DNA of 44,348 nucleotides. Origin: a virus. This document shows positions 8,147 to 41,276 of this stretch, piece by piece. The stretch spans positions 1 to 44,348 of IMG/VR virus record IMGVR_UViG_3300009183_000139; one strand, 5' to 3'. The first letter of the stretch is position 1; every line of letters begins with the position of its first letter. The translations under genes and the position numbers were made by a program. The notes beneath the pieces are model-generated. The model was not told the origin of the DNA. It ran no database searches and saw nothing but the letters and a program-made list of their open reading frames with translations.

Positions 8147-8157
8147 GTTAGTATTTA

Positions 8158-9855
8158 CTAGTCAATCTCACTGCATAATTCACTTATGATTTGACTGATA
8201 TTGGGCTGCAATCTTAAATGAGCAAGTTTTCTTGATGTGTCTTTTGACAAGAATTTTGTAATGTATAAAATAAAATTTTTGTCTTTGGCCAATGTGATTC
8301 CATATGATATGGGCTCGCATGACAACACAACCGGCTGGTCAGAAAAATCTTTTGTGAAATAGAATTTTTGTTCGGTAGACCAGTTGATATAAAGATTATT
8401 GCATAAACTATGATACTGGTGGCTGGTCAAAAAGTCATCAATTATTGGCTCAATCTCTATGTGCGACCCGGCTTGTTGTGTCAGCACAAATTTTATCACA
8501 CTTAGTGCATTGTAGACTCCTGACAGCACTGTCATTTCTACCAGCTGTTTTTGATCAAAAGACACACACTTTTTAGGAATCTCGCTGGTGTAAAAATCAA
8601 AACCAGGATCAATACGTGTGGATTTTACATATTCAAATTGAAATCGGCGTTGATACTCAGGGTCGTACATGGCAGGACTGGCCGGCAATGGTTCATTCAA
8701 AAACACAATGGGCAATATGTTTGCCTCAGTTATCTGACGCAGTGTTTGCCGCCAGGTCAAGGGAGTTTGTCCAGGTAATCCGTAGATCAATTGTGCTTTT
8801 ACAATCAACTGAGGATGTTTGGTCACCAGTTCACGGGCCATGGCAGCATGAGTTTCCCAACCAACATCTGGACGATCAATGTTTTTTAATATTTCTTCAT
8901 TGGTGTCTTGTATGGAAAAATTTAATGTTTTTTGTACCAGGCCGCTTTCGGCCATGATGTTGAAAATTTTTAAATTTACATCTTTGCGTAGTTTGCTGTA
9001 GTTGCCGCTGATTTTGAATCCAGCATTTTGTTGCAGATTTTTTTGTGCAAAATACTCTATCATGGCAACATCTTCGTCGTACTGCCCAACGTTGGCATCT
9101 GACAGGTAAATTTGTTTGATTCCTAATTCGTAAAACAAATCAATTTCTTCCTGGTAGGTATTTTTTCGTCGCGATATTTTATTTCCTAGCCCGCTGTTCC
9201 AATCACAAAAGGTACACGAATAAGGGCAACCTCTTGTCAAGGTGTACGGCAGATATAAAACACCGTTGCGTTCCAGCAGAGTGCGAGTCATTTCAGCAAA
9301 CAGTTTTCTATTGTGCGTAAATGGACTTGTACTGATCATTTTTACAAACTTGTAATCTGCTGTGATTGTTTGCCCAGTGTTGGAATTTACCCATCCACAG
9401 TTGCTAGTGTTAAATGCTATCAACGGAGTTTTACCAACCAGACTTTTGATTATGTCTGCAAATGCCTGTTCGCCTGCGCCGTAAACTGCATAATCAATAT
9501 ATGGATTTTTTTCAAAAAATGCTGGGTCAAGGTTGATGTTGATACTGGGCCCACCGGCAATGATCTTGACACGTGCGGATAACTGTGGTTTGATTTTGCT
9601 CAGTTGATCGGTCAAGTAGTCATGATTCCACATGTAATGACTGGTACAAAGCACATCAGGTTTATGCTGTTCCACATAGTCCAGTAACTCTTTATTGGTC
9701 AATGTTTGTTGAATAGGAACCAACCATTCCAATTGATCAGCAATCTCTGGGTAGGTTACATCAACATAAGTTTTCAAATGTAACACCGCTGGATACAGCC
9801 AAGATTTTGTTCCACCAGCATGATACAGCAGTATACGAAATCGTTGACCCGTCAT
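8158..9855 (-). CDS. B12-binding-type radical SAM enzyme
   Basis: This 565-residue protein has an N-terminal Rossmann-like domain (about residues 1-150, with KIIAGGPSIN and a YGAGEQAFADII segment typical of cobalamin-binding radical SAM proteins). The radical SAM core carries CPYSCTFC with C210, C214 and C217 binding the 4Fe-4S cluster, followed by SDANVG and LIYGLPGQT strands. The canonical DxHxxG cobalamin loop is not evident, so B12 binding is doubtful. The substrate is unknown; a methylation or rearrangement is possible. It sits 3 bp after the IscU stop and is followed by IscA, a context suggesting that the two assembly proteins supply its cluster. Confidence 0.88.
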   Translation of the reverse strand: MTGQRFRILLYHAGGTKSWLYPAVLHLKTYVDVTYPEIADQLEWLVPIQQTLTNKELLDYVEQHKPDVLCTSHYMWNHDYLTDQLSKIKPQLSARVKIIAGGPSININLDPAFFEKNPYIDYAVYGAGEQAFADIIKSLVGKTPLIAFNTSNCGWVNSNTGQTITADYKFVKMISTSPFTHNRKLFAEMTRTLLERNGVLYLPYTLTRGCPYSCTFCDWNSGLGNKISRRKNTYQEEIDLFYELGIKQIYLSDANVGQYDEDVAMIEYFAQKNLQQNAGFKISGNYSKLRKDVNLKIFNIMAESGLVQKTLNFSIQDTNEEILKNIDRPDVGWETHAAMARELVTKHPQLIVKAQLIYGLPGQTPLTWRQTLRQITEANILPIVFLNEPLPASPAMYDPEYQRRFQFEYVKSTRIDPGFDFYTSEIPKKCVSFDQKQLVEMTVLSGVYNALSVIKFVLTQQAGSHIEIEPIIDDFLTSHQYHSLCNNLYINWSTEQKFYFTKDFSDQPVVLSCEPISYGITLAKDKNFILYITKFLSKDTSRKLAHLRLQPNISQIISELCSEID

Positions 9856-9858
9856 GAA

Positions 9859-10230
9859 TCAATGTTTCTTTCGATAGTCTTCCACTGCGGCTTTTATAGC
9901 ATCTTCAGCAAGAATAGAACAATGAATCTTGACTGGTGGCAGTGCGAGTTCCTGAGCAATCTCTGAATTTTTAAGAGCTGCTGCCTCGTCAAGTGTTCGT
10001 CCTTTAACCCACTCGGTAACAAGAGAGGATGAGGCAATGGCACTTCCGCATCCGTATGTTTTGAACCTGGCATCTGTGATAATTCCGTTTTCAACTTTGA
10101 TTTGCAATTTCATCACATCGCCGCAGGCCGGTGCTCCCACCATGCCTGTGCCAATGGTGTCGTCAAGTTCAAACTTGCCCACATTGCGTGGATTTTCGTA
10201 GTGATCAATTACTTTTTCTGAATAGGCCAT
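9859..10230 (-). CDS. iscU: Fe-S cluster scaffold, IscU family
   Basis: This 123-residue protein is an IscU-type scaffold on which 2Fe-2S clusters form before transfer. It begins with YSEKVIDHYENPRNVG, the family signature, and has all cluster ligands: C36 and D38 in ACGD, C61 in YGCGSA, and H103-C104 in KIHCSILAED. The LPPVK motif recognised by the HscA-type chaperone is conserved at residues 97-101, so it may work with the host chaperone. No cysteine desulphurase is in the window, so sulphur would come from the host IscS. A consensus sigma70 promoter lies 18 bp upstream of the start. Confidence 0.95.
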   Translation of the reverse strand: MAYSEKVIDHYENPRNVGKFELDDTIGTGMVGAPACGDVMKLQIKVENGIITDARFKTYGCGSAIASSSLVTEWVKGRTLDEAAALKNSEIAQELALPPVKIHCSILAEDAIKAAVEDYRKKH

Positions 10231-17049: not shown

Positions 17050-18471
17050 ATGACCAGTCAGATCAATCCCAACAACATTGATGGTAATTATCCCATAGCC
17101 GGTGTGTCAAACAACACCCAAGGCATGCGTGACAATTTTACCAACATCAAACAGAATTTTCAATACGCAGAGAATGAAATAGATGATTTGCAATCCAAAG
17201 TTGTGTTAAAATCTGCACTGACTGGCACTACATTGGACAATAACTTGGGCAACAATCTGGTGTACAATGCTCAAGTGCAAGGCATATCTGGCACTCTTGT
17301 GCAAATTGCCAACACATCAGGGGCAATTACCCTTGATGCCAGTGCAGGACCGTTTCAAAGCATTGTGATGGCCGGCAACATAAGCCTGGGATTCGTGGCC
17401 AATACTTGGCCCATTGCCGGAACTGCTGGCAAGGTTCGATTACAAATCACTGGCACTTCAGGACAAACTATCACACTGCCATCTGCGGTGAACAATGGGA
17501 TAACAGGAGTTCAGGGCATTAGTGGCAATGTGATTACTCTGGCCTCAACTGGCACCTATCAATTTGATTTTTCGACCACAGATGGTGGTACCACTGTCAC
17601 CTTTTTTGATCTAAATCGTCCGCTGAATTATTATACCAATCCAGTGACCATTGCCAGCACCGCGGTGAGCAGCAGCAGTGGGTCTGGTGCATTGATAGTT
17701 GCTGGCGGAGTTGGCATTAGTGGCAATCTGTATGTTAGTGGTAATATTGTGGGCAGTGTTGTGGCAACCGGCAACACTTTTGTGGGCAATACCACAGTGG
17801 GCAATTTGTTGACTTCGGGATTTGTTTCGGCTACAGCCAACGTCACTGGTGGCAACATAGCAACTGGTGGTGTTGTTTTGGCCACAGGCAACATCACAGG
17901 TGGCAATTTAAATGCTGCTGGACTCAGCTTGAGCGGCAATGTGGTCAGTGCCGTTAATCTCACAGCAAACATCACAACCACTGCCAACATAGCAGGAGGC
18001 AACTTAAAATCATCCGGCATCATGAGTGCCACTGCCAATGTCACAGGTGGAAACATACTCACAGGTGGATTGATTTCGGCAACTTCTACGATCACAAGTA
18101 CAGCCAACATCACGGGCGGTAATATATTAACTGGTGGATTGGTTTCAGTCACAGGCAACATCACAGGTGGCAACATCGTCACTGGCGGCAACGTAACTGG
18201 TATCAATTTGTTGTCTAGTGCAGTAATATCTGCAGTGGGTGCAGCCACCATACTTTCTGGAACTGCTGTGCCTGCAGGTGGTACCACAGGTTCAGGTTAC
18301 AAATTCTCCAGTACTACTAATCTTGGCGTATTCTTTGGTTCTGGTGTGCCAACGCTGAGTGCGGCACAAGGATCATTATACCTGCGTACAGATGGCAGCT
18401 CAACCAGCACCAGAATGTACATCAACACCAATGGCGCAACAACCTGGACTGCTGTGACCACAGCGGCTTAA
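17050..18471 (+). CDS. Repeat-containing tail fibre or virion fibre protein
   Basis: This 473-residue protein begins with an N-terminal segment (GVSNNTQGMRDNFTNIKQNF) typical of phage fibre-like proteins of marine T4-like phages, followed by a coiled coil. Residues about 255-390 form a repeat region with seven Asn-(Val/Ile)-(Thr/Ala)-Gly-x-Asn units separated by short beta segments, which suggests a triple-stranded or beta-helical shaft. The C-terminus (GVFFGSGVPTLSAAQGSLYL to WTAVTTAA) matches the tip-like domain common in phage fibres. It lies alone on the plus strand and ends in a 3-bp convergent overlap with the helicase gene. Confidence 0.8.
   Translation: MTSQINPNNIDGNYPIAGVSNNTQGMRDNFTNIKQNFQYAENEIDDLQSKVVLKSALTGTTLDNNLGNNLVYNAQVQGISGTLVQIANTSGAITLDASAGPFQSIVMAGNISLGFVANTWPIAGTAGKVRLQITGTSGQTITLPSAVNNGITGVQGISGNVITLASTGTYQFDFSTTDGGTTVTFFDLNRPLNYYTNPVTIASTAVSSSSGSGALIVAGGVGISGNLYVSGNIVGSVVATGNTFVGNTTVGNLLTSGFVSATANVTGGNIATGGVVLATGNITGGNLNAAGLSLSGNVVSAVNLTANITTTANIAGGNLKSSGIMSATANVTGGNILTGGLISATSTITSTANITGGNILTGGLVSVTGNITGGNIVTGGNVTGINLLSSAVISAVGAATILSGTAVPAGGTTGSGYKFSSTTNLGVFFGSGVPTLSAAQGSLYLRTDGSSTSTRMYINTNGATTWTAVTTAA
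17840..18200 (+). repeat. Degenerate repeats coding N-[VI]-[TA]-G-x-N units
   Basis: About seven diverged copies of a segment coding Asn-(Val/Ile)-(Thr/Ala)-Gly-(Gly/Ile)-Asn, mostly followed by Thr-Gly-Gly, occur at irregular spacing in the fibre gene. Copies differ in synonymous positions, so they look old instead of recently amplified. Confidence 0.75.
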
Positions 18472-19886
18472 CCAGTTTTGATCTTGCCCAGCAGTTGTTT
18501 TAGTTTTGCACTTTGAACATCTGCTGTGACTTTGCCTGGTTCCGCACTGTCCCATGGAGGTGTGTTTGCGTTATCACTAGCCGGGCTAACTTGACTGCGG
18601 GCCTTGATTGAGTCCATGATGGATACAGATGGTTTCTTCGAATAAGCATCTCCATCTTCTCCGCCTTCATCAGTAATGCGCATGGTTTCAATATTGTACT
18701 CCAAATCAATTTTTTGACCAACGCCGGTCGAGCTTCGAGACTTCATACACTGTATCTGATACTTGCCACGCTCTTTCATGGCGCGACTAGTAAAGATACC
18801 AAACACGTTATCTGCTGTGTTGATTTTAGATATACCACCTGAAATATGACTGTGATCAAATTCAATTTCTTCCACAGCTGATCGATTCAACTGCGAAGCT
18901 GTTACCATCAAGAATCCCAGTTCTTTGGCCAAGTTACGCAGTTCTTCACTCACATACTTGTCTTTCACAAACAGGTCATTGGGTGAAACTTTGGCACTCA
19001 CTGGCATCAACAGGTCCAAGTAGTCAATCATCACAAAGTCCACACGCTTGCCTGTTTGTATTTGGTACTCTTTCAAGTACGCACGTATGTCATTGATGTT
19101 GCTCTGTGCCGGCAAACCTTTCACTTGATAGTTGCCCGACTTCTTGGCCACCAGTTTGACCTTTAGTTCTGTTGTGTCAATGTCCTTGCGAATATCCTTG
19201 GTGCTCATGTTGGTTAGCATAGCATCTGTTCGCAAACTTGTGAGTTCTTCACTCAGTTCCAGTGTGATGTACACACCACTGAGTCCTTGTTGCAACCAGT
19301 TCAGCGCAATGTTCATCATCACAAGTGATTTACCCGAGCCTGATCCACCGGCAAAGATGTTGAGTTCTCCGCGGCTGAATCCACCATACAACAATCTGTC
19401 CAGCTGTGGCCACCCTGTTGACACTTGCCCGCCACTGTTGAAATATTTTTCAATACGTGCCTTGGGATCACTGAAGTAGTCTGTGCCCATGTCCTTAGTC
19501 AAACTGATCTGTACAGCATCTTTGATCAGTTTCTCCACCGGTTCAAAGTCGCCTTTTTCCAGCATGTCTGCTGCTTTTAAAATAGCACGTTCCAGTTCTT
19601 GACGTTTGGTAAACTGTTCAAACTCACCCATGAACCAATCAAAATGACCTTGGTTCAAGTCAGGTACTGCTTGCAGTTTGATGCCTGTGGTGGCTGCAAT
19701 CTGTGTACGGTCTGGCAATGTCTTGTGTTTGTCACTGTGTTCTTTTATGAACTCAGCCGCAGGTCTCAAACTCTTGTCAAAGTTCTGGGGATTGTAGATA
19801 TTTTGAACACGCACATAACTCTGTGCATCTTCCAACATCATTTCTAGAAATAATCGTTGAACGTCAAGTCCGTATTCTTTTAACAA
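18468..19886 (-). CDS. Replicative DNA helicase, gp41/DnaB-like
   Basis: This 472-residue protein unwinds DNA at the replication fork and loads with the primase encoded just upstream. The C-terminal RecA-like domain has Walker A GGSGSGKS near residue 180, Walker B-type VMIDYLDLL, and the SQLNRS motif of DnaB-family helicases. The N-terminal part is helical. The only suitable start is TTG at 19886, seven bases after an AAGGAAG ribosome site; the gene overlaps the primase 3' end by 23 nt. It ends convergently against the fibre gene with a shared TTAA. Confidence 0.93.
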   Translation of the reverse strand: MLKEYGLDVQRLFLEMMLEDAQSYVRVQNIYNPQNFDKSLRPAAEFIKEHSDKHKTLPDRTQIAATTGIKLQAVPDLNQGHFDWFMGEFEQFTKRQELERAILKAADMLEKGDFEPVEKLIKDAVQISLTKDMGTDYFSDPKARIEKYFNSGGQVSTGWPQLDRLLYGGFSRGELNIFAGGSGSGKSLVMMNIALNWLQQGLSGVYITLELSEELTSLRTDAMLTNMSTKDIRKDIDTTELKVKLVAKKSGNYQVKGLPAQSNINDIRAYLKEYQIQTGKRVDFVMIDYLDLLMPVSAKVSPNDLFVKDKYVSEELRNLAKELGFLMVTASQLNRSAVEEIEFDHSHISGGISKINTADNVFGIFTSRAMKERGKYQIQCMKSRSSTGVGQKIDLEYNIETMRITDEGGEDGDAYSKKPSVSIMDSIKARSQVSPASDNANTPPWDSAEPGKVTADVQSAKLKQLLGKIKTG

Positions 19887-20850
19887 GTGCTTTCTTCCTT
19901 AGTTCTATCTTGATCTTGCTGGTTTCTCTTGATTGCATTATAGTTAGTAAGGCTCCTAATCGTCCCAACTTTATCACAGCATCGTTGACATCCTTGCAGC
20001 CCTCTGGCCAGTCAGGTATGCTCACTGCCCAGCCCAGTTCTAATGCACGGTCAACTAGTTCAACACCAGCCCGGTCTTGGTCTGGCACCACAGTTATTGA
20101 TTTATCTAGACTGCGTATCAGTCTAACTTGTGCATCGCTGACAGTGTTGTGCATCACTGCCACACCACCTATGCTGAGTGCATCAAATATGCCTTCTGTT
20201 ACAATCACATGCTGCCAATCTGCCGGCTGTAAGTCTACGCCAAACACATAACCTGGTTGACTATCACTGATGAACTTGGGCTGTCGGTCATCTAAAAATC
20301 TACAGGTGTATCCCACAATCTTGTTGTCGTAAGTGAATGGGATGACCACGTGCGATCTTGTCCAGTGGACCCCGTCATTTTGTATCTGCACCATAACTGG
20401 AAAGTCTTCTGGCACATGTCTGCCACGCACATAGTTCCAATAGAATTCATGCTCGGGAGTCAGCAACTCAGCAAACGGTGGCAAGTCTCGTTCTTCAAAT
20501 GTAACACCACTCAGTGTGTTCCACAGTTGTTGCCGATCTTGTATTATGCCATGTATGCTTCGATGTCGCAGACTTTCAAGATTCAACATCTCTATTTCTA
20601 CTTCAGGAACATTCATCCAGCCCAGAAGTTTACGTGCTTTGTAACTTACACTACGACCCAATATAAAACTGGCTGTGTAACTGCAATTGAAGCAGTGATA
20701 ACTCCAGCCTGCTTCGGTGGCTTTGAGTCCACCGCGCCCTCGACGATCCTGTGTGCCGCCCGTGTGCTGGCAGCACACCGCATTGAAACTCAACCAACCC
20801 GAGGGTGTTTGTTTCTTTTTTGCAGGTAGATAAGCAAGGATGTCAAGCAT
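19864..20850 (-). CDS. DNA primase, gp61-like
   Basis: This 328-residue protein makes RNA primers for lagging-strand synthesis. An N-terminal zinc-binding module is visible (C26, C27, H29, then H52, C53 and C56 in YHCFNCSY), followed by a TOPRIM domain with VTEGIFDALS (catalytic Glu) and VPDQDRAGVE (DxD-type metal site). The length is close to T4 gp61. It is translated together with the helicase. I saw no clear promoter in the 38-bp gap upstream of the ATG at 20850. Confidence 0.92.
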   Translation of the reverse strand: MLDILAYLPAKKKQTPSGWLSFNAVCCQHTGGTQDRRGRGGLKATEAGWSYHCFNCSYTASFILGRSVSYKARKLLGWMNVPEVEIEMLNLESLRHRSIHGIIQDRQQLWNTLSGVTFEERDLPPFAELLTPEHEFYWNYVRGRHVPEDFPVMVQIQNDGVHWTRSHVVIPFTYDNKIVGYTCRFLDDRQPKFISDSQPGYVFGVDLQPADWQHVIVTEGIFDALSIGGVAVMHNTVSDAQVRLIRSLDKSITVVPDQDRAGVELVDRALELGWAVSIPDWPEGCKDVNDAVIKLGRLGALLTIMQSRETSKIKIELRKKALVKRIRT

Positions 20851-21983: not shown

Positions 21984-21991
21984 TATTTATG
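21984..21991 (-). promoter_or_regulatory. Putative T4-type late promoter
   Basis: CATAAATA on the minus strand within CATAAATACGT, the same 11-mer as the promoter at 12266. It is 15 nt from the ATG at 21968 and overlaps the start codon of the plus-strand gene at 21989. Confidence 0.65.
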
Positions 21992-22366
21992 GGCAATAAC
22001 ATCTTTGAAAAACTGGCGGAAAAATACCCGTTTATAACTCTTTGCATCTACGCCAGCAATGAGTATATTGGCATAGTCCAGAACAGGGATGATGCTGTCA
22101 CAACCATCTACGACTTTGGTGCTGTGCTTGTACAAGATGACAAGCTGGAATTCTTAGAATTGGCCAACACTTGGTGGTGGGAAAGCAATAGAAGTATTCC
22201 TATCAACATATTCTTACGCAGAGACTGGGACAAGTTCAAGTTCACTCTACGCACATTCAGCAACAAAGATCTTGAAATACTGCACGGGCCAGTTTGCAGT
22301 CTAATAGATATCAGCCGCAAAAAAAGCAAAAGAAAATCAATTACCCTGGTCCGTCGTATTGAGTAA
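21989..22366 (+). CDS. Conserved hypothetical protein
   Basis: A 125-residue protein beginning MGNNIFEKLAEKYPFITLC, with a tryptophan-rich centre (ANTWWWESNRSIPINIFLR) and a basic C-terminus (ISRKKSKRKSITLVRRIE). I recall similar small proteins in marine T4-like phages but no function. No good ribosome site is visible before the ATG. Its 3' end overlaps the convergent Pol III alpha-like gene by 30 bp. The plus orientation inside a minus-strand region is unusual, but the sequence has the composition of a real protein. Confidence 0.65.
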   Translation: MGNNIFEKLAEKYPFITLCIYASNEYIGIVQNRDDAVTTIYDFGAVLVQDDKLEFLELANTWWWESNRSIPINIFLRRDWDKFKFTLRTFSNKDLEILHGPVCSLIDISRKKSKRKSITLVRRIE

Positions 22367-22915
22367 GTTCATGTGCAGGGCCACCAAGGCTGCATAGCTC
22401 ACAGCGTGTGACTTCTTGAACGTGTACCCACGCGATTCATCACCGTCCCATACTTCTGCAAATACTTGATCCCAGGGCTTTCGCTGTAGATGTGCCTTGC
22501 CCGGTCTAATGATTGATATAAAAGCAGCCATCCTGGGTATGGAGTCAGGTTGCATAGCCACCATCAAATCCACGTAGTTGCCCACGTGTACCAACTGAGA
22601 GGCCCAGGGTCTGTCTGTCCACAGTCGACTCCATGGAGGTACGGCTGACAACATGGCATCGTAATGTGCAGGATCCCGGATCAACTGATACACACTCATG
22701 TTCAACAAGTCAATTTTGAAGTAGCCACGCTGTTCTGCTGACTCATAGTCTATGGCAGCACATCCATGCTCTGGATCCTGCGGAATGTCTGTGACGTAGA
22801 TGCCAGAATTATGACGACGTGGTCGACCATCAACAACCTGTCTAGCAGGTGTGTGCCGGATCACTTCCAATATCTTGCTACGATCCGGAACGTCAATATC
22901 AATGTCTGCACTCAT
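22337..22915 (-). CDS. Mini DNA polymerase III alpha-like protein
   Basis: This 192-residue protein carries, in order and compressed, the conserved motifs of bacterial DNA polymerase III alpha (DnaE). ADIDIDVPDRSKILEVI matches the palm block holding D401 and D403 (here D6 and D8). RHNSGIYVTDIP matches RHAGGVVIAP. GYFKIDLLNMS matches VKFDFLGL with D555 (here D69). IIRPGKAHL matches the fingers RPGP block, and GYTFKKSHAVSYAALV matches GYGFNKSHSAAYALV. The PHP, beta-binding and OB domains of the roughly 1,160-residue DnaE are absent. Activity cannot be predicted. The ATG at 22915 overlaps the upstream stop (ATGA). Confidence 0.8.
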   Translation of the reverse strand: MSADIDIDVPDRSKILEVIRHTPARQVVDGRPRRHNSGIYVTDIPQDPEHGCAAIDYESAEQRGYFKIDLLNMSVYQLIRDPAHYDAMLSAVPPWSRLWTDRPWASQLVHVGNYVDLMVAMQPDSIPRMAAFISIIRPGKAHLQRKPWDQVFAEVWDGDESRGYTFKKSHAVSYAALVALHMNLLNTTDQGN

Positions 22916-23271
22916 GTTCTGCACAGCGCCACAACCATTTTCAATTGCTGTTCGGCCTCACGAACAGCACCCATGGCATCAGCCACAGCAGGATACTGTT
23001 CAGCCATGCGTCGGGCTTCCCTTTCTTGTTCCATTTTGTCCAGTGCCCAGTCAATTGCTGTTTCAGCTGCGCCAGTGAGCCCCACAGTGGCCTGTGCCAT
23101 AATAAATATTTGCCAGTTCTGACCGTTGTAGAATTCAATTTGCTGAGTGCTGGTGTTGAATCGTAGGTCACCCACACCCATCATGCCAGCACCGGTGTTG
23201 ATGTAGTTGCTGGCACTGTTGCCACCACCTACTATGACGTGTTTGCCCATGGACATTATTGAGTTGATCAT
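22912..23271 (-). CDS. Hypothetical protein, possible virion component
   Basis: This 119-residue protein starts at the ATG at 23271 (MINSIMSMGKHVIVGGGNSAS), immediately after the stop of the SGNH-hydrolase gene; a 9-residue longer form would overlap that gene. The first half (GAGMMGVGDLRFNTSTQQIEFYNGQNW) resembles the repeated beta units of phage fibre and tip proteins, and the second half is a charged helix (LDKMEQEREARRMAEQYPAV). A fibre-associated or chaperone-like role is possible. Its stop overlaps the Pol III alpha-like start. Confidence 0.6.
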   Translation of the reverse strand: MINSIMSMGKHVIVGGGNSASNYINTGAGMMGVGDLRFNTSTQQIEFYNGQNWQIFIMAQATVGLTGAAETAIDWALDKMEQEREARRMAEQYPAVADAMGAVREAEQQLKMVVALCRT

Positions 23272-23272
23272 A

Positions 23273-24226
23273 TTAGTCTTTATTATAGATGGTTTCAATA
23301 TATTTTACTAGCGTATTGGCAATAAACTTATTAGATTCTACACCTGGATGTAAATTATCAGTTGCACAATCCATATTATAATTTTTCATCCAACTGGCTG
23401 GAACAAACTCAGGCATGTCATAAAAGTATGTTTGATCTATTTTAGAATACACCAACTCATTTTTATAATTTATTAACCAAAAAACTAGTTTCAACTGCCT
23501 TGCTCTAGCAATCGCAACCATGGCTCTTATCTTGGCCAGTAGTTCATAAAATAAAAAATCTTTGTGATAAACTTCTACCATTTTTTGATTTAGATTCGCA
23601 TTGGCAGCATGTGCAAACAGTATTTTTTCTAACTGTTGATTCTGTTTACAATAATGTAATCTATCCAGTGTGGTAAGTTGCACCACAACAATCTGTCCTG
23701 GAAAAAAATCCAGTTGTGTAAAGCGATCAAATATTAAACTATTACTGCCGCCACCTGTTCCTAAATTTAATAACTCTTTGTTGAAATATTTTGCCACTTG
23801 GGTAGAATATCTTGTTTCAACATCCGGCAACCCAACTCCGGCTGTGAAGCTACAACCTAAAAAAACAGCATGATTCTTTTTGACAATCGAATGATGATTC
23901 CATTTGTATACATCAAATTTAATTTTGTCAAGGTTTACAACATTGTTATATTTTAAGTTGTAGTCTTTTAACCAGTTAAGAAAATCATAATAACTGTCTA
24001 CGTTGGCAAATTCTTCAATGGTAGATTCTGCCCAGTACACAGATTTTGCCTGACTTAGAATACATTCAAGTTCTTGTAAATCTGGAACATCACCTACTGA
24101 CGTGTGTGCTACTGGCTGATTATGATATTGATTAGTAATTAACACACTTGGCGGGGCACCAAGCTGTTTGTAATACTCCGAAGTCTTAACATTGGTACTT
24201 CCTACAATAATAATTGATTTTACCAT
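23273..24226 (-). CDS. SGNH/GDSL-like hydrolase
   Basis: This 317-residue protein has the SGNH blocks in its second half: the nucleophile block VFLGCSFTAGVG (S127), the Gly-Asn block NLGTGGGSN (Asn162) and the C-terminal D290-x-x-H293 pair in TDNLHPG. The first 110 residues have a Rossmann-like start (SIIIVGSTNVK). Enzymes of this fold remove acetyl or acyl groups from glycans or lipids, so modification of a surface glycan is possible. Base composition is more AT-rich than the neighbouring genes, which may mean recent acquisition. It overlaps the upstream gene by 7 nt. Confidence 0.75.
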   Translation of the reverse strand: MVKSIIIVGSTNVKTSEYYKQLGAPPSVLITNQYHNQPVAHTSVGDVPDLQELECILSQAKSVYWAESTIEEFANVDSYYDFLNWLKDYNLKYNNVVNLDKIKFDVYKWNHHSIVKKNHAVFLGCSFTAGVGLPDVETRYSTQVAKYFNKELLNLGTGGGSNSLIFDRFTQLDFFPGQIVVVQLTTLDRLHYCKQNQQLEKILFAHAANANLNQKMVEVYHKDFLFYELLAKIRAMVAIARARQLKLVFWLINYKNELVYSKIDQTYFYDMPEFVPASWMKNYNMDCATDNLHPGVESNKFIANTLVKYIETIYNKD

Positions 24227-24909
24227 CCTGCTTGCTTCAATATTAGTTTTGCGTATTCAGCGTCAGCGGCATAGTCTGCAAACCGTTTCTGCCATATGTC
24301 TGAGTCTATATAGGGCCATATCATGGACACTTGGTCAGCTGTGAGTTCACCCAGGAACTTCTGTCCTGACTCTGAGTTGTATATCACCCAAGGACTAATG
24401 CGTCCGGTTGTGACAGCATGACACATGGCATGTGTGCTGCCATAACGCAAACAATCATGTGGCGATGCTGAGTGTCGCTCACTCCAGTCTATGCCAAACT
24501 CCACTGCACGGGCCAGTGCATCTGCCACTGCTTCTACCTTCAAATAGTCCAACAAATACTCAGTGTAGATTTTGTCACTACCCCAGTTGTCGATCTTTTT
24601 GTTGTGTTTTAACAACCACTCTGTGAACTGTCTAGGATTGATTGCTCGTGTGTTGTGGCAGTATCTACCAAATTTTACAAAGGCTCGATAGTAAGGTGAG
24701 TCTGCAAAGTCATCAAATGTTTTGAGTCTGGCCGAACCTTGTGCAATCTCATAAAATCTCAAGTAGGATTGAAAGCCCAGTTCAACACCACGCTCTGACC
24801 GTTCTGATCTGCGGCGCTTGGGCTCACACATGTGAACCACAAGACTTTCTGCACGACGAAATGTTTTCTTGCAGTAGCCGCAAGTGAGTTCACTTAGTGT
24901 CTCGGCCAT
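24220..24909 (-). CDS. Zinc-finger protein, conserved in T4-like phages
   Basis: This 229-residue protein begins with a C2HC-type zinc finger, C10-x2-C13 then H26-x-C28, in TCGYCKKTFRRAESLVVHMC, followed by a basic stretch (EPKRRRSERSERG). The rest is a mainly helical domain. I recall homologous proteins of unknown function in marine T4-like phages. DNA or RNA binding is inferred from the finger. The start is taken at the ATG at 24909, within the 3' end of the preceding gene; a TTG at 24930 is less likely. It sits between the hydrolase and the clamp-loader-like gene. Confidence 0.7.
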   Translation of the reverse strand: MAETLSELTCGYCKKTFRRAESLVVHMCEPKRRRSERSERGVELGFQSYLRFYEIAQGSARLKTFDDFADSPYYRAFVKFGRYCHNTRAINPRQFTEWLLKHNKKIDNWGSDKIYTEYLLDYLKVEAVADALARAVEFGIDWSERHSASPHDCLRYGSTHAMCHAVTTGRISPWVIYNSESGQKFLGELTADQVSMIWPYIDSDIWQKRFADYAADAEYAKLILKQAGW

Positions 24910-25342
24910 GGTCTCTGAGGTATTGATCAAGTTCTTTCTTTGTGGTCATTGAGGCCAGCAAGGCTATCTCATCTTCTTTGTGTGTGGGAAATAACTCTGC
25001 CAGTTGTTTTTTGATAGCACTTGTACCCGCACCTGTTTCTTTTTTCTTGGGAGAGATCCAGTTGTGTCTGGAGGTGCCCATGTTTGGACTCACAGTGGTA
25101 GCACACAACCATTGCAGTTCAGGATGCCGACTGATGTTGAAGAAGTGTTTGTTGAGTCGCTCGTTGGTGGCAATCAAATAAAACTCTTGCAAGTCTCTTG
25201 AGCCTTCCACACATGACGCCCAACGAATCATAAGATAGTTTGAAAACTTCTTGCGTTCCTCGTCTGTGAGGTCACGATAAAAACTTCTGTTCTTGCGATC
25301 CAGTTGTCGCATCTCATTAGCAATGTTTAGTTTGTCGCTCAC
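24890..25342 (-). CDS. Possible clamp-loader small subunit, gp62-like
   Basis: This 150-residue protein begins at a GTG (25342) that overlaps the preceding stop (GTGA), with AAGG 11 nt upstream; a longer upstream reading only traverses the preceding gene. It has a pattern similar to phage gp62 proteins: FSNYLMIRWASC at residues 34-45 (compare the F/YxxFMINRGLS segment), followed by an N-rich helix (ATNERLNKH), a basic SRHNWISPKKKE segment and a C-terminal helix ending in TTKKELDQYLRDHG. gp62 works with gp44 to load the gp45 clamp. The match is by pattern only, and gp44 and gp45 are not in the window. Confidence 0.5.
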   Translation of the reverse strand: MSDKLNIANEMRQLDRKNRSFYRDLTDEERKKFSNYLMIRWASCVEGSRDLQEFYLIATNERLNKHFFNISRHPELQWLCATTVSPNMGTSRHNWISPKKKETGAGTSAIKKQLAELFPTHKEDEIALLASMTTKKELDQYLRDHGRDTK

Positions 25343-26279: not shown

Positions 26280-26308
26280 ATAATATACTGTTGCGTGATA
26301 AAAGTCAA
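26280..26308 (-). promoter_or_regulatory. Sigma70 promoter before the 25773 gene
   Basis: Minus-strand -35 TTGACT (26308-26303), 17-bp spacer, -10 TATTAT (26285-26280). It lies in the 31-bp gap after uvsW and overlaps the uvsW stop region. The -10 is only about 7 bp from the ATG at 26273, so the leader would be extremely short. Confidence 0.6.
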
Positions 26309-27774
26309 CCTAATTTCATCCAATCAAGTTTTTCTTGTGTAAAGGGATAGTTGGCCTCTTTATAGAATTGCTTGCGCTTGGTCAAATGACGTTTGGCAAA
26401 TTTACAGGTGCTGGTCAAGTCCCAGATTTGAACATGATCCTTGTCTTCTGCTTTGCGTATTCCACGACCGATTGACTGAATGACACGCACAAAACTCTTG
26501 CCAGGTTCAACAAGCACAAGATTAAAAATCCTGGGAATATTGATACCCACAGCAGCCACACCATATGTGGCCACAATAATTTTGTCTGTTGCTTCGGCCA
26601 CTTCATCATATTCTGCTTGCCGATTTTTTGTTTTGGTTGCACCTGACACAAACACTGCACGGTCGCCCAGTCGTTCCACCAGTTGTCTACCGCACTCGGT
26701 ACGGTCTACCAGCACCAAGGTATTGCCGGTTTCGTTTACTTGCCGCACAAGATCTGCCATGGTGTCCAGGCGCCCTGACTCTTCCAGCAGGTACTTGAGT
26801 TCGCTTTGATAGTCTTTGTATTCTACATGATCGATCAGTTGTACAATGTTCACATGGCAGTTGGCTAATACGCCTTGTTGTTGCAGTTCACTGGCACTGA
26901 GACGACCAATAACAGGACCAAGACTTACTAGTAGTGCTTGACTTTCAAACTTCTCTTTAGGCACAGTTCCGGTTAGCCCCCAGCGAATTGGCACTCTCGA
27001 CATCACACCTGTGAGCAAGGTTTTTAATGCATCTGCCTTGGCCATGTGTACTTCGTCTACAATAACGCACACAACATCTTCCAAAAACTCACCAATGGTA
27101 CAGTCACCCACTCCTGCCTTGGTATTTTTCAACAAATTGTTTAGGCTCTGCCATGTGCATATGGTGTGCTGACGCCCGTATTCTTTTCTGTCACCAAAGT
27201 ATACACCAACATCCTGCTCCATGTTCTTGTAGTCTGCTTCGGTTTGTGTGACCAAGCTCTTGTTGGGCACAATCACAATGCTCCGACCATAAGGTGTGAC
27301 AGCATTGCTCAAGGCTGCTGTCATTATGGTCTTGCCTGCACCTGTGGCCACTTCTTGTATGCACTGCGGGTTGGCTAAAAAGTTGTTGACAATCTCCACT
27401 TGGTAGTCACGTAACATGATGGACTCGCCTGCGGCAGGATGTGTCTTGGGCCATTTCACGTGCTCAAAACTTGTTTCAGTTACTTGTTCAAACGTGAACG
27501 TGTTTGAGTAGTCGCGCTGATCATCCAATTCAACATCATAGTCAAGCCGTTCAAGTATGGGCACGATCTCTGGCAACAGGTTCACATAAGTTGATCCGCC
27601 CAGTTGGAAGTATGCTACCTTGCCATCCCATCGTCCCAGTCGCACTGCTGGCAAATAACGTGCGGCAGGGTTTTCATATTTGAAAGCATTGACCAAGGCC
27701 TTGCGAGCATCCAGGTCCAGGCCTTCTATCTTGATGTTTACTTCGTCTTTGATTACTATTGTTGCTTGTTTCAT
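26305..27774 (-). CDS. uvsW: DNA helicase UvsW
   Basis: This 489-residue superfamily 2 helicase promotes branch migration and the switch from origin to recombination-dependent replication. Motifs seen are Q/I EVATGAGKTIMTAALS (Walker A), IVDEVHMAKAD (DEVH box), LTGTVPKEK (motif III), VIVATYGVAAVGI (motif V) and VIQSIGRGIRKA (motif VI). The N-terminal domain (about residues 1-110) is the double-stranded DNA-binding part of UvsW. Length is close to T4 UvsW. Its ATG overlaps the preceding stop by ATGA, so it is coupled to the unknown gene 27771-28589. Confidence 0.95.
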   Translation of the reverse strand: MKQATIVIKDEVNIKIEGLDLDARKALVNAFKYENPAARYLPAVRLGRWDGKVAYFQLGGSTYVNLLPEIVPILERLDYDVELDDQRDYSNTFTFEQVTETSFEHVKWPKTHPAAGESIMLRDYQVEIVNNFLANPQCIQEVATGAGKTIMTAALSNAVTPYGRSIVIVPNKSLVTQTEADYKNMEQDVGVYFGDRKEYGRQHTICTWQSLNNLLKNTKAGVGDCTIGEFLEDVVCVIVDEVHMAKADALKTLLTGVMSRVPIRWGLTGTVPKEKFESQALLVSLGPVIGRLSASELQQQGVLANCHVNIVQLIDHVEYKDYQSELKYLLEESGRLDTMADLVRQVNETGNTLVLVDRTECGRQLVERLGDRAVFVSGATKTKNRQAEYDEVAEATDKIIVATYGVAAVGINIPRIFNLVLVEPGKSFVRVIQSIGRGIRKAEDKDHVQIWDLTSTCKFAKRHLTKRKQFYKEANYPFTQEKLDWMKLG

Positions 27775-31565: not shown

Positions 31566-31583
31566 GTACTACTAGAGTATTAC
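31543..31583. repeat. Promoter-repeat copy 3
   Basis: Near-identical to 31261-31301. It carries the -35 and spacer of P4 and the stop codon of the glycosyltransferase gene, so the unit spans a gene end plus the next gene's promoter. Confidence 0.9.
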
Positions 31584-32320
31584 TGCCAAAAATTGGCTAT
31601 TATGGGGTCATTGATTTCGTGTGGCTTGGGACGACCGTGGAATACTAGTACACTGGTGCCTGGATTAAGTTTAGCCCCGGACCCAGGATTGATAGCCTGC
31701 CGGCGTTGAAAATTGTATCCACCATCTGCCACTTGCCAACGCCAACTTTGAATATATTGTTGATCAAAATTTCTTCTCTGCCGGTGATCAATTACTGCAC
31801 CCAAGTAGTCTTGATCGCCTTGATATCTACGCACAGTGTCATCAATGTTGAGTCGATCAAAATCTGTCCAAACGTGTGCAAATCGTTCGGTGTTCCAATA
31901 CATTATGCTTGAATTCATTCCTGAAAAAGAAGCCTGTTGCAAATATCTAAAATCTCGTATGGTCCAAAAATAATCAAGATGACAGTCTAACATCCAATCC
32001 AGTTGATCTATTATAACCACGTCAAGATCCATGTACAACAAATTGCCTGAATGATGCTCGGGATTGAACAACTGCATCTTGTACCACCATTCACGTTTGG
32101 GTCCTGAAATGCCGGGCCATTCTTTCACCACATGTTTGATCATGTGCGAGGGCACTGACCTGTCTGCTTCAGTGTACACATGAAAACGTATACCATCTTG
32201 CAAATTACGGCTCAGCATGTTGTACAGTTTTTCCACATACTGCCAGTCATAACCTGTACCGTGAATAACACAAGCACAGTCAGTTATGCTGTCAGGGCGG
32301 GCGCGATTCTTTTTAGCCAT
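31580..32320 (-). CDS. Glycosyltransferase, GT8-like with DxD
   Basis: A 246-residue protein with GT-A features: an opening strand (CACVIHGTGYDW), a central LLYMDLDVVIID segment whose D-L-D is the nucleotide-sugar metal motif, and a late RYQGDQDYLG segment matching the acceptor-side aspartates of GT8-like enzymes. It probably transfers a sugar in the cytoplasm. The donor is unknown. It overlaps the 32284 gene by 37 nt, long for this genome, so the real start might lie slightly downstream. It is the first of the glycan cassette genes. Confidence 0.75.
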   Translation of the reverse strand: MAKKNRARPDSITDCACVIHGTGYDWQYVEKLYNMLSRNLQDGIRFHVYTEADRSVPSHMIKHVVKEWPGISGPKREWWYKMQLFNPEHHSGNLLYMDLDVVIIDQLDWMLDCHLDYFWTIRDFRYLQQASFSGMNSSIMYWNTERFAHVWTDFDRLNIDDTVRRYQGDQDYLGAVIDHRQRRNFDQQYIQSWRWQVADGGYNFQRRQAINPGSGAKLNPGTSVLVFHGRPKPHEINDPIIANFWQ

Positions 32321-33135
32321 AGTCCTTGTCTCAATTCTTCCACAGTGTATTCAGTGTGGCATATTTTAGCCAGCCATAATTCTCTATCAATATCATAAGG
32401 TTGTTCAATGTCAGGCATGCCCACTGCCACGGGATATGCCAGACTGCTGTGTGCCACAATGGGCCTGCAGCCTGCAATGCCTGCTTGGATGCCTGGTCCT
32501 GAGTTGTGATTTACCACAGCATGACAATTGAAGTGCATGTCAAAACTGTCGTAGGTGTTGGCCATGGGTTTAGCAACTTCCATTGTAACGTTGTCAGGCA
32601 GGTGTGGCATGCGTAATGGTGAACGTGGGTGAGCACGAATGCGTATGGGACGGTCAGTGGAGTTGCGTAACTGTTGAATTTGCATCAACACCCATGATTC
32701 CATGCTGTCAATGCCAGCAACTTGCAAACTGTTTCGATGTTGTGCGGCAATAATAATTTCGGGACCTGGATTCACCTGTTGGGCTAAACTTATTTGCAGA
32801 TGCCGTGGACGACCTAGATCTAAATTGTGCTCATGACCGTAATAGCCATCTCTGGTGATGTGATTAACTGCCAGTTTCCAGGTTGTGCCACGATACAGCG
32901 CACCAATGTCTATCACAATCACCGGCCGGTTTTGGCTGCGATAATGTTCGTACACGGCTTGGTTAGGCCGCATTCTGCCATTCCACAGCACTGACCAAAT
33001 CACTGCGGCATCTGCGGTCATGGAGTTTTCTTGTGTTTGTATGCCTGCGGCTTGGCAGCAGTCCAAAAACGCCGACATCACAGGTTTACTGTTCAATGCA
33101 CATTGGGCAGGAAAATAGGCTATGGTTTTGATCAA
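32284..33135 (-). CDS. GT-B-like glycan transferase (KpsC/S-like)
   Basis: A 283-residue protein of the GT-B type seen in capsule-type transferases. The C-terminal part has DRPIRIRAHPRSPLR (compare TDRPIVIRERNKSR in the 33950 gene) and VVNHNSGPGIQAGIAGCRPIVAHSS, the conserved N-S-x-x-G-x-E/Q-A segment near the donor site. It is one of four paralogues in this region. The start appears to be TTG at 33135, only 14 bp from the divergent gene at 33150. Sugar and acceptor are unknown. Confidence 0.7.
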   Translation of the reverse strand: MIKTIAYFPAQCALNSKPVMSAFLDCCQAAGIQTQENSMTADAAVIWSVLWNGRMRPNQAVYEHYRSQNRPVIVIDIGALYRGTTWKLAVNHITRDGYYGHEHNLDLGRPRHLQISLAQQVNPGPEIIIAAQHRNSLQVAGIDSMESWVLMQIQQLRNSTDRPIRIRAHPRSPLRMPHLPDNVTMEVAKPMANTYDSFDMHFNCHAVVNHNSGPGIQAGIAGCRPIVAHSSLAYPVAVGMPDIEQPYDIDRELWLAKICHTEYTVEELRQGLWLKRIAPALTA

Positions 33136-33149
33136 CTGTAAATACTCTT

Positions 33150-33953
33150 ATGAAATACACTGTAGTTACCACTTTTAATGCTGATGGATACAAGACCTAT
33201 GGATCCAGAATGATTGATACTTTTTTGCGCACTTGGCCCAAAGAAGTGCAACTACAAGTGTACGCCGAAGGTTGTGTTGTCAATCAGACTGCACCCAATT
33301 TACAAGTGTTAAGTTTAGAAGGGTCAAGCCCTAAACTTGTGGCATTTAAAAATACCTGGCGTGATGTGCCCAAGGCCAATGGTGATGTTTCTGCAGATCT
33401 TGTTAGATCAAAAAGAAAAGATGCAGGCAAAGGATTCAAATGGCATGCTGTGAGATTTGCTCACAAGGTGTATGCTATATTTCATGCCGCCCAGCATGCC
33501 ACAACAGATTGGTTGATCTGGATGGATGCTGATATGATTTGCCATAGTCCCATGACAGTGGCAAAACTATCCGAGTTTTTTCCAGACTCCGCAGATCTTT
33601 GTTTTGCTGGACGCAGTAGAAAATTCACCGAATGTGGCCTGTACGGCATGCGCATAACCGAGCCTACAATCAAATCCTGGTTGTCAGATTTCCAACACAT
33701 GTATGATCATGCTGAATCAGGTATATTTGCCCTGGATGAATGGCATGACAGTTATGTATTTGACGCCGTAAGAAAACGTCATGCCTTGCGTGAACTCAAC
33801 TGGACGGCACACCTGCAAATGGGCGAAGGTCATCCACTAATCAATTGCGAATGGGGTGCATATATTGATCACCTCAAGGGTGAGAGAAAAAGTCTTGGCC
33901 GTAGCCGGTCATCAGACATACGAGTCAAAAGAAACGAAAGTTACTGGAGATGA
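33150..33953 (+). CDS. Glycosyltransferase-like protein with DxD
   Basis: A 267-residue protein with an initial beta strand (MKYTVVTTFNADGY), a DWLIWMDADMICHSP segment near residues 123-137 whose D-A-D acts as a metal/nucleotide-sugar motif, and an AGRSRKFTECGLYGMR loop. It resembles GT-A enzymes of aquatic phages. It begins the plus-strand half of the glycan cassette and overlaps the next start by ATGA. A TGTAAATA box precedes it at 33137-33144, too near the ATG to be an ordinary late promoter. Confidence 0.7.
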   Translation: MKYTVVTTFNADGYKTYGSRMIDTFLRTWPKEVQLQVYAEGCVVNQTAPNLQVLSLEGSSPKLVAFKNTWRDVPKANGDVSADLVRSKRKDAGKGFKWHAVRFAHKVYAIFHAAQHATTDWLIWMDADMICHSPMTVAKLSEFFPDSADLCFAGRSRKFTECGLYGMRITEPTIKSWLSDFQHMYDHAESGIFALDEWHDSYVFDAVRKRHALRELNWTAHLQMGEGHPLINCEWGAYIDHLKGERKSLGRSRSSDIRVKRNESYWR

Positions 33954-34753
33954 TATTTCTCAGCAAGAACGGTGATGACGAGTACATTGATATGTATGCA
34001 CAAGGACTTGGACTTGAGCCCACACCGTTGGAGTCATGGCGTTATGAGGACAGCACAGAGCCACTCATGCTACGTGGCATCATGAAACACAAGATCATCA
34101 AACAGTGCTGGGCAGATAACCGACCGTTTAGATACATGGATTCAGGTTACCTGGGTAATCGTCCCAGTTTTAAAAATCCACATGGCTGGAAGCACTGGCA
34201 TAGGATTGTGCCCAACAACCTACAACATGATCAAGTGATACCACGACCCAGTGATCGATGGAATCAACTGGGACTAGAAGCGGCCAATCGCCGACGTGGC
34301 AGTGCAATACTGATTGTGGCACCAGATGAAAAGCCTTGCAAGTTTTATGACATAGAATTAGACACCTGGCTGGCAGAAACTGTGGCCACTATCAAACAAC
34401 ATACTGATAGACCCATCGTCATACGTGAACGCAACAAGAGTCGTACTGATAGAAAAATCAATCGTGTGGAACATGCACTAAATGATGTGCATGCAGTTGT
34501 GACCTTTAACAGCATAGCAGGTACTGAAGCCATATTGGCAGGTACCCCAGTATTTGCCATGGCACCATCAAACGCTGCCAGACCAGTCAGCAACACAGAC
34601 TTGAGTTGCATAGACAATCCATGGTTTCCAGATCGGGATCAGGTGTTGGCCTGGGCATATCATTTGGCCTATGCGCAGTTTCACATAGACGAATTCAAGA
34701 ACGGACGAGCAGAACGTATAATTAAACAAACTGAGGAGATACTGAATGGTTGA
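33950..34753 (+). CDS. GT-B-like glycan transferase (KpsC/S-like)
   Basis: A 267-residue paralogue of the genes at 32284, 37923 and 38857. Shared landmarks are the MLRGIMKHKIIKQCW opening, YMDSGYLGN, VIPRPSDRWNQ, the FYDIELDTWLAETVATIKQHTDRPIVIRER segment and VVTFNSIAGTEAILAGTPVFA. The last segment is the donor-site loop typical of capsule-like GT-B enzymes. The closest relative here is the 38857 gene, with about the same spacing of motifs. It is coupled to its neighbours by ATGA and by an overlap with the FkbM gene. Confidence 0.75.
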   Translation: MIFLSKNGDDEYIDMYAQGLGLEPTPLESWRYEDSTEPLMLRGIMKHKIIKQCWADNRPFRYMDSGYLGNRPSFKNPHGWKHWHRIVPNNLQHDQVIPRPSDRWNQLGLEAANRRRGSAILIVAPDEKPCKFYDIELDTWLAETVATIKQHTDRPIVIRERNKSRTDRKINRVEHALNDVHAVVTFNSIAGTEAILAGTPVFAMAPSNAARPVSNTDLSCIDNPWFPDRDQVLAWAYHLAYAQFHIDEFKNGRAERIIKQTEEILNG

Positions 34754-35393
34754 GCATTATGGATGGAAATTCCCGGACTTTGAAACACACCTTCCGCGAA
34801 TGTTGAAGAAAAGTGTGGACAAAGGTCTCTCAGCTGAATATCAAGTTGCTGTGCGACGCCGAAGTATTGAACTGTGTAAAAATCGGGACCTGGCTCTGGA
34901 CATTGGCGCTAATGTGGGCTTGTGGAGTCGTGACTTTGTTGGCAGTTTTGCTCGTGTGATAGCATTTGAACCAGTGGCTGTGTTCAGAGAATGTTTAGAA
35001 CACAATGTGCAAGGCACAAATTTTGAAGTTCAACCAATTGCCTTGGGCGATCAAGACACCCAAGGCACCATGATCATCACAGAAGATAATTCTGGTCACA
35101 GTCACCTGGACCCTGCTACCATGGGCACAGGCAACGTGCAAGTTGTTCGATTGGACACACTGAATTTTCATGATGTCAGTTATATCAAAATTGACTGCGA
35201 AGGATATGAGTATCGTATTTTGCAAGGTGCAGAACAAACCATTCGCCGTTGTAGGCCTGTGATAGTGATAGAGCAAAAACCACATGATGCCTACAGCAAA
35301 CAATACGGGCAGTTTGCGGCAGTGAAACTGTTGCAAGAATGGGGCATGATCAAACTAGATCAAGTACGTGATGACTGGATCATGGGGTGGTAA
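34746..35393 (+). CDS. FkbM-family methyltransferase
   Basis: A 215-residue SAM-dependent methyltransferase. Motif I LALDIGANVGLWSRDF is near residues 49-64, followed by the acidic VIAFEPVAVFRE strand, and DVSYIKIDCEGYEYRILQGAE, the defining FkbM segment. FkbM enzymes mostly methylate hydroxyl groups of sugars or polyketides, which fits the surrounding glycan genes. A GAGGAG ribosome site lies within the 3' end of the previous gene, and the stop overlaps the next ATG (TAATG). Confidence 0.87.
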   Translation: MVEHYGWKFPDFETHLPRMLKKSVDKGLSAEYQVAVRRRSIELCKNRDLALDIGANVGLWSRDFVGSFARVIAFEPVAVFRECLEHNVQGTNFEVQPIALGDQDTQGTMIITEDNSGHSHLDPATMGTGNVQVVRLDTLNFHDVSYIKIDCEGYEYRILQGAEQTIRRCRPVIVIEQKPHDAYSKQYGQFAAVKLLQEWGMIKLDQVRDDWIMGW

Positions 35394-36043
35394 TGACTGC
35401 ACTTGATCTAGTAGAAATTAAACAAGGATGGTATTGGCCAAAAGATGATACCAATACTTGGAAATTTTTATTAGAAAATTTTGATTTGCCCGGCCGAATA
35501 TCCAGTTATGTTGATGACAAAAAAGTTGTGGTACAAGCTGGCGGCAACTGCGGTATGTATCCAAAACAATATTCAAAAATTTTTGATGCTGTTTATACTT
35601 TTGAACCAGACTGGCTAAATTTTTATTGTTTAGCAATGAATTGCCCTGAAGAAAATATAGTTAAATCTCAAGGATGTCTTGGTAGTGATCCTGGATTGGT
35701 CGATCTTCATATCAAATCTAAGAGTAGAGGAAAAAGTTTTATCAACGGTGATGGTCTTTATCCAATCTATCTGATAGATAATTTGGGACTGACAGCATGT
35801 GATTTGATACACTTGGACATAGAAGGCTATGAATATTTTGCTCTTAGCGGTGCTGTGTCTACTATCAAAAAATTCCAACCAATCATAGCCATCGAAATGT
35901 GGGATCCACCTCCAAATAAATATCTAAATAGATTTGGGGACAACATCAATCAAAAAACCAAAGACCTACTGGCATCATTGGGGTACTCACATGTTGATAC
36001 ACTGAACGAATCTGATTGGATATACACATGCAAACAAAAATAA
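35393..36043 (+). CDS. FkbM-family methyltransferase, second copy
   Basis: A 216-residue protein related to the preceding one: KKVVVQAGGNCGMYPKQYSKIF holds a modified motif I (A-G-G-N-C-G instead of D-I-G-A-N-V-G), YTFEPDWLNFY the acidic strand, and DLIHLDIEGYEYFALSGAV the FkbM segment. The loss of the usual Asp at the start of motif I is worth noting, but many phage members show it. I use the ATG at 35393 (TAATG with the previous stop). The gene is more AT-rich than its neighbour, which suggests separate origins for the two copies. Confidence 0.82.
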   Translation: MTALDLVEIKQGWYWPKDDTNTWKFLLENFDLPGRISSYVDDKKVVVQAGGNCGMYPKQYSKIFDAVYTFEPDWLNFYCLAMNCPEENIVKSQGCLGSDPGLVDLHIKSKSRGKSFINGDGLYPIYLIDNLGLTACDLIHLDIEGYEYFALSGAVSTIKKFQPIIAIEMWDPPPNKYLNRFGDNINQKTKDLLASLGYSHVDTLNESDWIYTCKQK

Positions 36044-36714: not shown

Positions 36715-36715
36715 A

Positions 36716-41268: not shown

Positions 41269-41276
41269 GTGGATAT

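Follow-up and report, generated by a model that had tools for sequence, protein, structure and literature searches.

A virus gene of an uncultivated IMG/VR clade encoding the probable C-terminal half of a split minimal DNA polymerase III alpha

The C-half gene and its surroundings

The window, that is, the whole stretch of viral DNA analyzed here (44,348 nucleotides), carries at 22337-22915 a gene for the putative C-terminal half (C-half) of a split minimal DNA polymerase III alpha (Pol III alpha). Translation of this interval placed a 192-aa open reading frame on the minus strand, with the stop codon at 22337-22339 and the coding sequence at 22340-22915; the protein is 195 aa long when read from a GTG and 192 aa from the ATG at 22915. 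In the plus-strand frame that was tried, stop codons are present. The preliminary description, which gave no strand, had reported 192 residues bearing the motifs of Pol III alpha in a given order, and the same frame and order were recovered. The motifs are ADIDID (D4, D6 and D8), RHxxG (R34-H35-x-x-G38), K67-x-D69, which reads KID (67-69), the RPGK block of the fingers (R137-P138-G139-K140, RPxK in general form), and the block G163-Y-x-F-x-K-S-H170-x-x-x-Y174, which reads GYTFKKSHAVSY (163-174) and includes KSH at 168-170.

Alignment with the motif P-D401-F-D403-V-D405 of Escherichia coli DnaE sets D4, D6 and D8 equal to D401, D403 and D405. By the same kind of motif register, D69 corresponds to D555, K67 to K553, H35 to H511 within K510-H511, R137-P138 to R639-P640, and K168-S169-H170 to K758-S759-H760. 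D401, D403 and D555 are absolutely conserved in the C-family, D405 is conserved in all three DnaE groups (PMC3919608), and H760 has been modelled as the steric gate (PMC8485763). The catalytic pair had first been named as D6 and D8; in this register the homologues of D401 and D403 are D4 and D6, and D8 matches D405. The third catalytic Asp was correctly given as D69. The 'RPG' fingers block is present in the window protein, but the family-wide form is RP-x-K.

The spacing from D8 to H35 is 26 residues, compared with 105 between D405 and H511 in E. coli. The thumb of DnaE falls in this interval; the short spacing suggests that most or all of the thumb is missing. The C-half starts at the DxD motif and therefore lacks the palm segment that bears the GRGS loop.

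A gene for a 125-aa protein converges on the C-half gene (21989-22366, plus strand), and their 3' ends overlap by 30 b. It belongs to phrog_11637, which has no assigned function (E=4.8e-30), and Pfam gave no match for its protein. A homologue was found by tblastn at 151 of the 153 C-half loci with at least 450 b downstream; in 122 of these 151 it lies on the opposite strand and 200 b or less from the C-half end, the other 29 being outside that criterion. The phrog_11637 protein is a candidate functional partner. Two further conserved neighbors on the minus strand are a gp61-like DNA primase (19864-20850; phrog_47, E=5e-29), with homologues at 111 of 114 loci with at least 3 kb downstream, and a gp41/DnaB-like replicative helicase (18468-19886; phrog_19, E=1e-70), with homologues at 42 of 43 loci with at least 4.5 kb downstream. 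Matches were lacking at L225, L090 (XacN1) and L089 (Slicko01) for the primase, at L090 and L089 for the convergent gene, and at L090 for the helicase. The XacN1 locus stands apart, with one gene intervening and with primase, helicase and convergent-gene matches all lacking.

A UvsW-like helicase gene (26305-27774, minus strand; phrog_16, E=5e-73) stands in the same block in reference jumbo phages, where a gene order resembling that of the C-half locus of the window is visible. The T4-like replication set of the window includes gp41, gp61, UvsW, UvsX and gp32. The upstream gene for a 128-aa protein (22912-23298) was considered as a conserved partner and rejected, homologues being found at only 69 of 163 loci. 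The same block as the C-half gene also holds a phrog_11058 member (24220-24930, minus strand) whose start resembles a C2H2 zinc finger (PF00096, E=2e-4, just below cut-off).

Elsewhere in the window, an Fe-S cluster set is found at 7823-10230 (minus strand), with adjoining genes for an IscA-like protein (PF01521), a B12-binding radical SAM protein (PF02310 and PF04055), and a NifU_N/IscU-like protein (PF01592). Ribonucleotide reductase genes, for the small subunit (553-1656) and the large one (2570-4891), flank a gene for a methyltransferase-like protein (1653-2567, minus strand), with a weak PrmA match below cut-off. A block at 31580-41304 was judged by eye to consist of sugar or glycan genes; in it, Pfam identified a cytidylyltransferase fused to a cupin of the mannose-phosphate-isomerase type (40501-41304) and gave no match for 38857-39906.

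The C-half family and its N-half partner

In PHROGs v4, the window protein matches phrog_11778 'DNA polymerase' over residues 3-187 of 192 (E=1.7e-50), and longer 'DNA polymerase' profiles match it at 5e-7 and weaker. Of 50,697 phage records, 63 gave relatives in tblastn that align over 80% of the query or more. Identity to the window protein is 29-43% in the 60 of these 63 that were listed, the closest isolate among them being 43% identical, and 56 of the 60 are over 280 kb. At least 593 IMG/VR stretches encode relatives as well. The relatives in both kinds of record, together with the phrog_11778 match, argue that the order of the motifs is not due to chance. Homologues of the same length, for which a search had been proposed at the outset, thus exist in phage records and in IMG/VR, where 148 copies measure 185-208 aa; 12 of 160 C-half loci and 1 of 80 N-half loci were dropped from the length set for want of a usable complete open reading frame.

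Twelve residues are identical in all 159 aligned C-half sequences: D4, D6, D8, H35, G38, K67, D69, R137, P138, K140, H170 and Y174. The 159 C-half rows, like the 92 rows of the N-half alignment, include near-identical sequences and a few duplicates. Values of dN/dS are 0.04-0.17 in the 9 of 12 pairs that allowed a computation, the remaining 3 having saturated dS.

Profile evidence for kinship with bacterial DnaE is weak for the C-half alone and significant for its partner half. The preliminary description had taken the lack of any significant profile match to Pol III alpha as refuting, and on this point the outcome is mixed. Pfam gave no significant match for the window protein, and phmmer with this single protein against PDB sequences returned nothing at E up to 1. 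A profile of 12 C-half rows reaches DnaE chains in the PDB at E=0.08 to 0.23. With hhalign, the families gave only partial alignments to the single E. coli DnaE, at probabilities of 10-64% and, for one pair, at E values between 3e-3 and 7e-5, an outcome consistent with DnaE kinship and not decisive by itself. In view of the absent Pfam and weak PDB matches, what supports the kinship of the C-half is the order of its motifs, its PHROG profiles, its predicted fold and the partner half. Two scans of genome contigs yielded no bacterial relatives; each used short patterns from one protein, which distant copies could escape. Among the records listed, both genes carry varying names, such as 'hypothetical protein', 'putative membrane protein' or, singly, 'DNA polymerase (III alpha)'.

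In 13 of 15 records, a second open reading frame elsewhere in the genome matches PF07733 (DNA_pol3_alpha) over cut-off; the two records without it are contigs of 99.6 and 113.6 kb. The product of this frame, the N-half, has about 170 aa (open frames of 164-213 codons). It ends in ...GVGRGSSxASYxLYLIGxHxxxSxxYxLDxxEFL(K/R) or a few residues from it, which corresponds to the ...FERFLN of DnaE that directly precedes PDFDVDF, and each of the first 13 distinct N-half sequences gathered stops no more than a few residues from the position just before PDFDVDF. The split point thus lies where the N-half stops, at the equivalent of DnaE residue 393, and the C-half starts at about 399. A profile of the N-half matches E. 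coli Pol III alpha in the PDB over residues 218-392 (E=2e-6), two partner N-halves match phrog_11127 'DNA polymerase' (E=2e-40 and 2e-50), and none of the 92 N-half rows departs from GRGS. By sequence, the C-half carries only half of an active site; the part of the palm that binds dNTP, with GRGS, comes from a separate gene.

No N-half match was found in the 44-kb window or in G001, an IMG/VR contig of 99.6 kb encoding an identical C-half protein; such an absence would be expected of fragments, which both are. In another IMG/VR contig, G002, the C-half is 93% identical to that of the window and an N-half lies about 98 kb away. Searches of 16 records with TIGR00594 and PF17657 returned the two halves, one weak stray match and nothing else. 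PF17657 gave 9 matches in 8 of the 16 records, of which 8 are the C-half (one over cut-off) and one is the stray (W06 201372-201467, E=0.016). Weak stray matches to PF07733 occurred in W06 at 56579 (E=0.008) and in W04 at 123058 (E=0.06).

The two halves largely occur in the same genomes. Among the 60 phage records listed by tblastn for each half, 58 are common to both; the totals are 71 records for the N-half (11 outside the listed 60) and 63 for the C-half (3 outside), and Listeria records are counted in the 71 and absent from the listed rows. Four listed records are unshared: OQ508956, in which PF07733 finds the N-half; OP752703, in which a C-half was found; PP728206, a 109-kb record; and OP883945. 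RAS14 appears with the N-half only among the listed rows, yet its C-half was found by profile. The 16 IMG/VR contigs over 200 kb comprise 13 with both halves, 2 with only the N-half and 1 with only the C-half; they were picked for carrying one half, so that only the other half is informative, and G004 and G017 among them are apparently near-duplicates. Both halves are present in all 9 of these contigs that measure at least 299 kb. Distances between sequences of one half correlate with those of the other over 24 genomes (r=0.78; 0 of 2000 permutations), as would be expected here for any two vertically inherited genes.

Other replication genes accompany the pair. A clamp-loader match is located 0.7-2.5 kb (median 1.3) downstream of the N-half in 64 of 66 cases. 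Family B polymerase was detected in 12 of 15 and 11 of 13 records of two overlapping sets, both of which include G002 and G004. By PF00136, each of the 12 named phages examined, RAS14 among them, has one, as do 9 of 9 contigs of at least 299 kb. It was not found in G001, G002, G003 and G008, each about 213 kb or less; G002, the closest contig with both halves, has none in its 213 kb. In Atu_ph07 (L107), Slicko01 (L103) and Paride (88906-92683), the family B match is spread over two open frames, which may mean a divided or interrupted main replicase in these phages as well. A DnaQ-like exonuclease was recorded in 10 of 12 named phages (9 over cut-off), in 1 of 10 long IMG/VR contigs, and with no match in the window. 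A DnaQ-like partner was accordingly rejected as a general part of the system; given the 1 in 10 among the long contigs, epsilon does not generally accompany the Pol III core.

Predicted folds and comparison with known systems

Structures were predicted from alignments freed of near-duplicates (56 and 63 rows left). AlphaFold2 gave a pLDDT of 89.4 for the C-half, with four of five models at 86 or more and one poor (68.3), and 87.4 for the N-half. In VIA-align, residues 1-192 of the C-half model align to residues 398/399-784 of E. coli Pol III alpha in six chains (Z 6.4-7.9). The comparison with DnaE structures that had been called for thus yields a match over the whole length, which, at 192 aa, agrees with the claim that PHP, beta-binding and OB domains are missing from the window protein. 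Pol III alpha and PolC fill the first 15 of 31 rows in the structural list for the C-half, at Z 5.1-8.9 and with an rmsd of 5.9-7.1 A; three of these rows are titled only 'DNA polymerase' and are taken as PolC from the residue range. The next row has Z 3.4. The Z values of the C-half overlap 7-8, a level that models without a clear match can reach.

The N-half model aligns from residue 73/76 to 172 with E. coli 278/279-393 in four chains (Z 8.5-10.1), and in its structural list Pol III alpha and PolC occupy the first 11 of 13 rows, at Z 6.5-10.8 and with an rmsd of 2.1-3.0 A, before a row with Z 2.3. Residues 1-70 or so of the N-half (L142 4001-4210 and relatives) are confidently folded and lie outside the listed structural alignments. 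Foldseek matches are weak in both cases, with a best E of 2.5e-3 and Pol III alpha in the first 13 matches for the C-half, and a best E of 0.34 and Pol III alpha in the first 4 matches for the N-half, unrelated proteins being mixed in after rank 4. Because the aligned ranges abut, the predicted halves would tile DnaE with about 5 residues between them and no overlap.

Iyer et al. (2021; Viruses 13:63, PMC7824862) used comparative genomics to describe a split minimal Pol III of this kind in the "group 2.2" jumbo phages. In that account, two standalone proteins from distant genes exist beside a family B polymerase and without other Pol III domains, the N-terminal one being the NTP-binding part and the C-terminal one the metal- and template-binding part. 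The authors expect the two parts to reconstitute an enzyme, propose synthesis of one strand or repair, and regard the split pair as a model of the ancestral enzyme (PMC7824862). The C-half described here, with its length near 190 aa and its motifs D-x-D-x-D, KxD, RPxK and KSH, is no different in kind; it belongs to an uncultivated IMG/VR clade. Relative to the available text of that account, the neighboring primase and helicase, the convergent phrog_11637 gene, and the clamp loader beside the N-half are additions. PHROGs v4 holds the halves as two separate families, phrog_11778 and phrog_11127, which are unlinked in its output.

Other works on individual phages list Pol III subunits. Before that account, the paper on phage CBB gave only an alpha of 172 aa, which in its words 'appears to be truncated' (PMC5259590), and that on Atu_ph07 listed one alpha and one epsilon subunit (PMC6102473); that of 2024 on a Sinorhizobium jumbo phage reports two Pol III subunits, its available text mentioning no split (PMC11242549). 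A literature search, mostly at the level of titles and abstracts and with few subscription journals or preprints, recognized no experiment on the split pair.

Like bacterial DnaE (1160 aa in E. coli), the window protein has palm and fingers motifs in order and keeps the equivalents of D401, D403 and D555, of D405, K553 and H511, and of the steric-gate residue H760. Unlike it, the phage enzyme is divided over two genes, cut at 393|399, with no single chain holding the whole palm. Neither half has a PHP, beta-binding or OB domain, and TIGR00594 and PF17657 over 16 records brought up nothing beyond the two halves but one weak stray match. The motifs are spaced far more closely, with most or all of the thumb gone by this spacing.

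In cyanobacteria, dnaE is also divided into two genes, and the halves are spliced to the full-length enzyme by a split intein. The phage system is similar in that DnaE would be made from two genes. Assembly here would be non-covalent, because the N-half ends at about ...EFL(K/R) and leaves no room for an intein.

A proposed two-protein polymerase and its alternatives

The best explanation of the gene in the window is that it encodes the C-half of a minimal family C polymerase (Pol III alpha type) which T4-like jumbo phages would build from two proteins and which would work beside their own family B replicase; this reading has a probability of roughly 0.8. The analysis shows homology, complementarity, co-occurrence, an invariant active site and the gene neighborhood. 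Since the halves complement each other and the active site never varies, it is likely that the two assemble physically and act as a polymerase. The window protein would supply the metal-binding aspartates, the adjoining conserved Lys and His, and the motifs of the fingers, among them the steric-gate histidine; the N-half would supply the GRGS dNTP-binding part of the palm. The two proteins would bind each other without covalent joining and re-form the palm and fingers of DnaE across the break 393|399.

An earlier view took the window protein as a minimal polymerase-like nucleotidyltransferase in its own right. The aspartates and fingers motifs in one chain, as well as the confident single-chain model, would suit such an enzyme. 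The GRGS palm segment is absent from it, however, and is kept in a separate partner in nearly the same records, so that "polymerase-like" stands and the protein is a half whose GRGS part is in a second gene; action alone is very improbable. Somewhat less improbable, and still unlikely, is that the halves assemble and catalysis has been lost, leaving a scaffold of the replisome, a regulator of the family B polymerase, or a decoy that binds host replication proteins. A family B polymerase is indeed present in these phages (12 of 15 and 11 of 13 records), and the pair has neither the C-terminal domains nor most or all of the thumb, which processivity needs. But a scaffold does not require invariant metal ligands or invariant equivalents of D405, K553, H511, H760 and GRGS (159 of 159 and 92 of 92 rows), and a decoy does not require a co-inherited N-half. 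The regulator and decoy put forward in the preliminary description are weakened by the co-occurring partner, the invariant catalytic and steric-gate residues, and the position of the genes among replication genes.

Decay of a captured host dnaE could be suspected from the size of the protein (192 vs 1160 aa) and from the early annotation of an N-half as one that 'appears to be truncated' (PMC5259590). The conserved length (185-208 aa in 148 IMG/VR copies), gene order and active site speak against it. This conservation also holds in listed isolates only 29-43% identical to the window protein, and dN/dS is low (0.04-0.17 in the 9 computable pairs of 12). By these comparisons a remnant appears already contradicted, and its likelihood is close to nil.

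Returning to the two-protein polymerase, the complex would have little or none of the thumb and no PHP, OB or C-terminal clamp-binding domain, and would for this reason be a short-patch enzyme of poor processivity. It may extend primers from the neighboring primase-helicase, or it may fill gaps and serve in repair. Because of the gene neighborhood, primer extension is tentatively preferred, as a preference only. A more specific and doubtful proposal is that the two proteins form a 'Pol alpha-like' primer extender that hands over from the primase-helicase to a clamp-bound family B replicase. Primers would then come from the primase-helicase encoded beside the C-half and pass to the replicase, whose clamp loader is encoded beside the N-half.

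If the main reading is true, the pair would represent a very small polymerase core of the C-family and a natural case of one active site built by two separately encoded proteins. The split pair, which is widespread in giant phages, would help to tell on which parts of Pol III catalysis depends.
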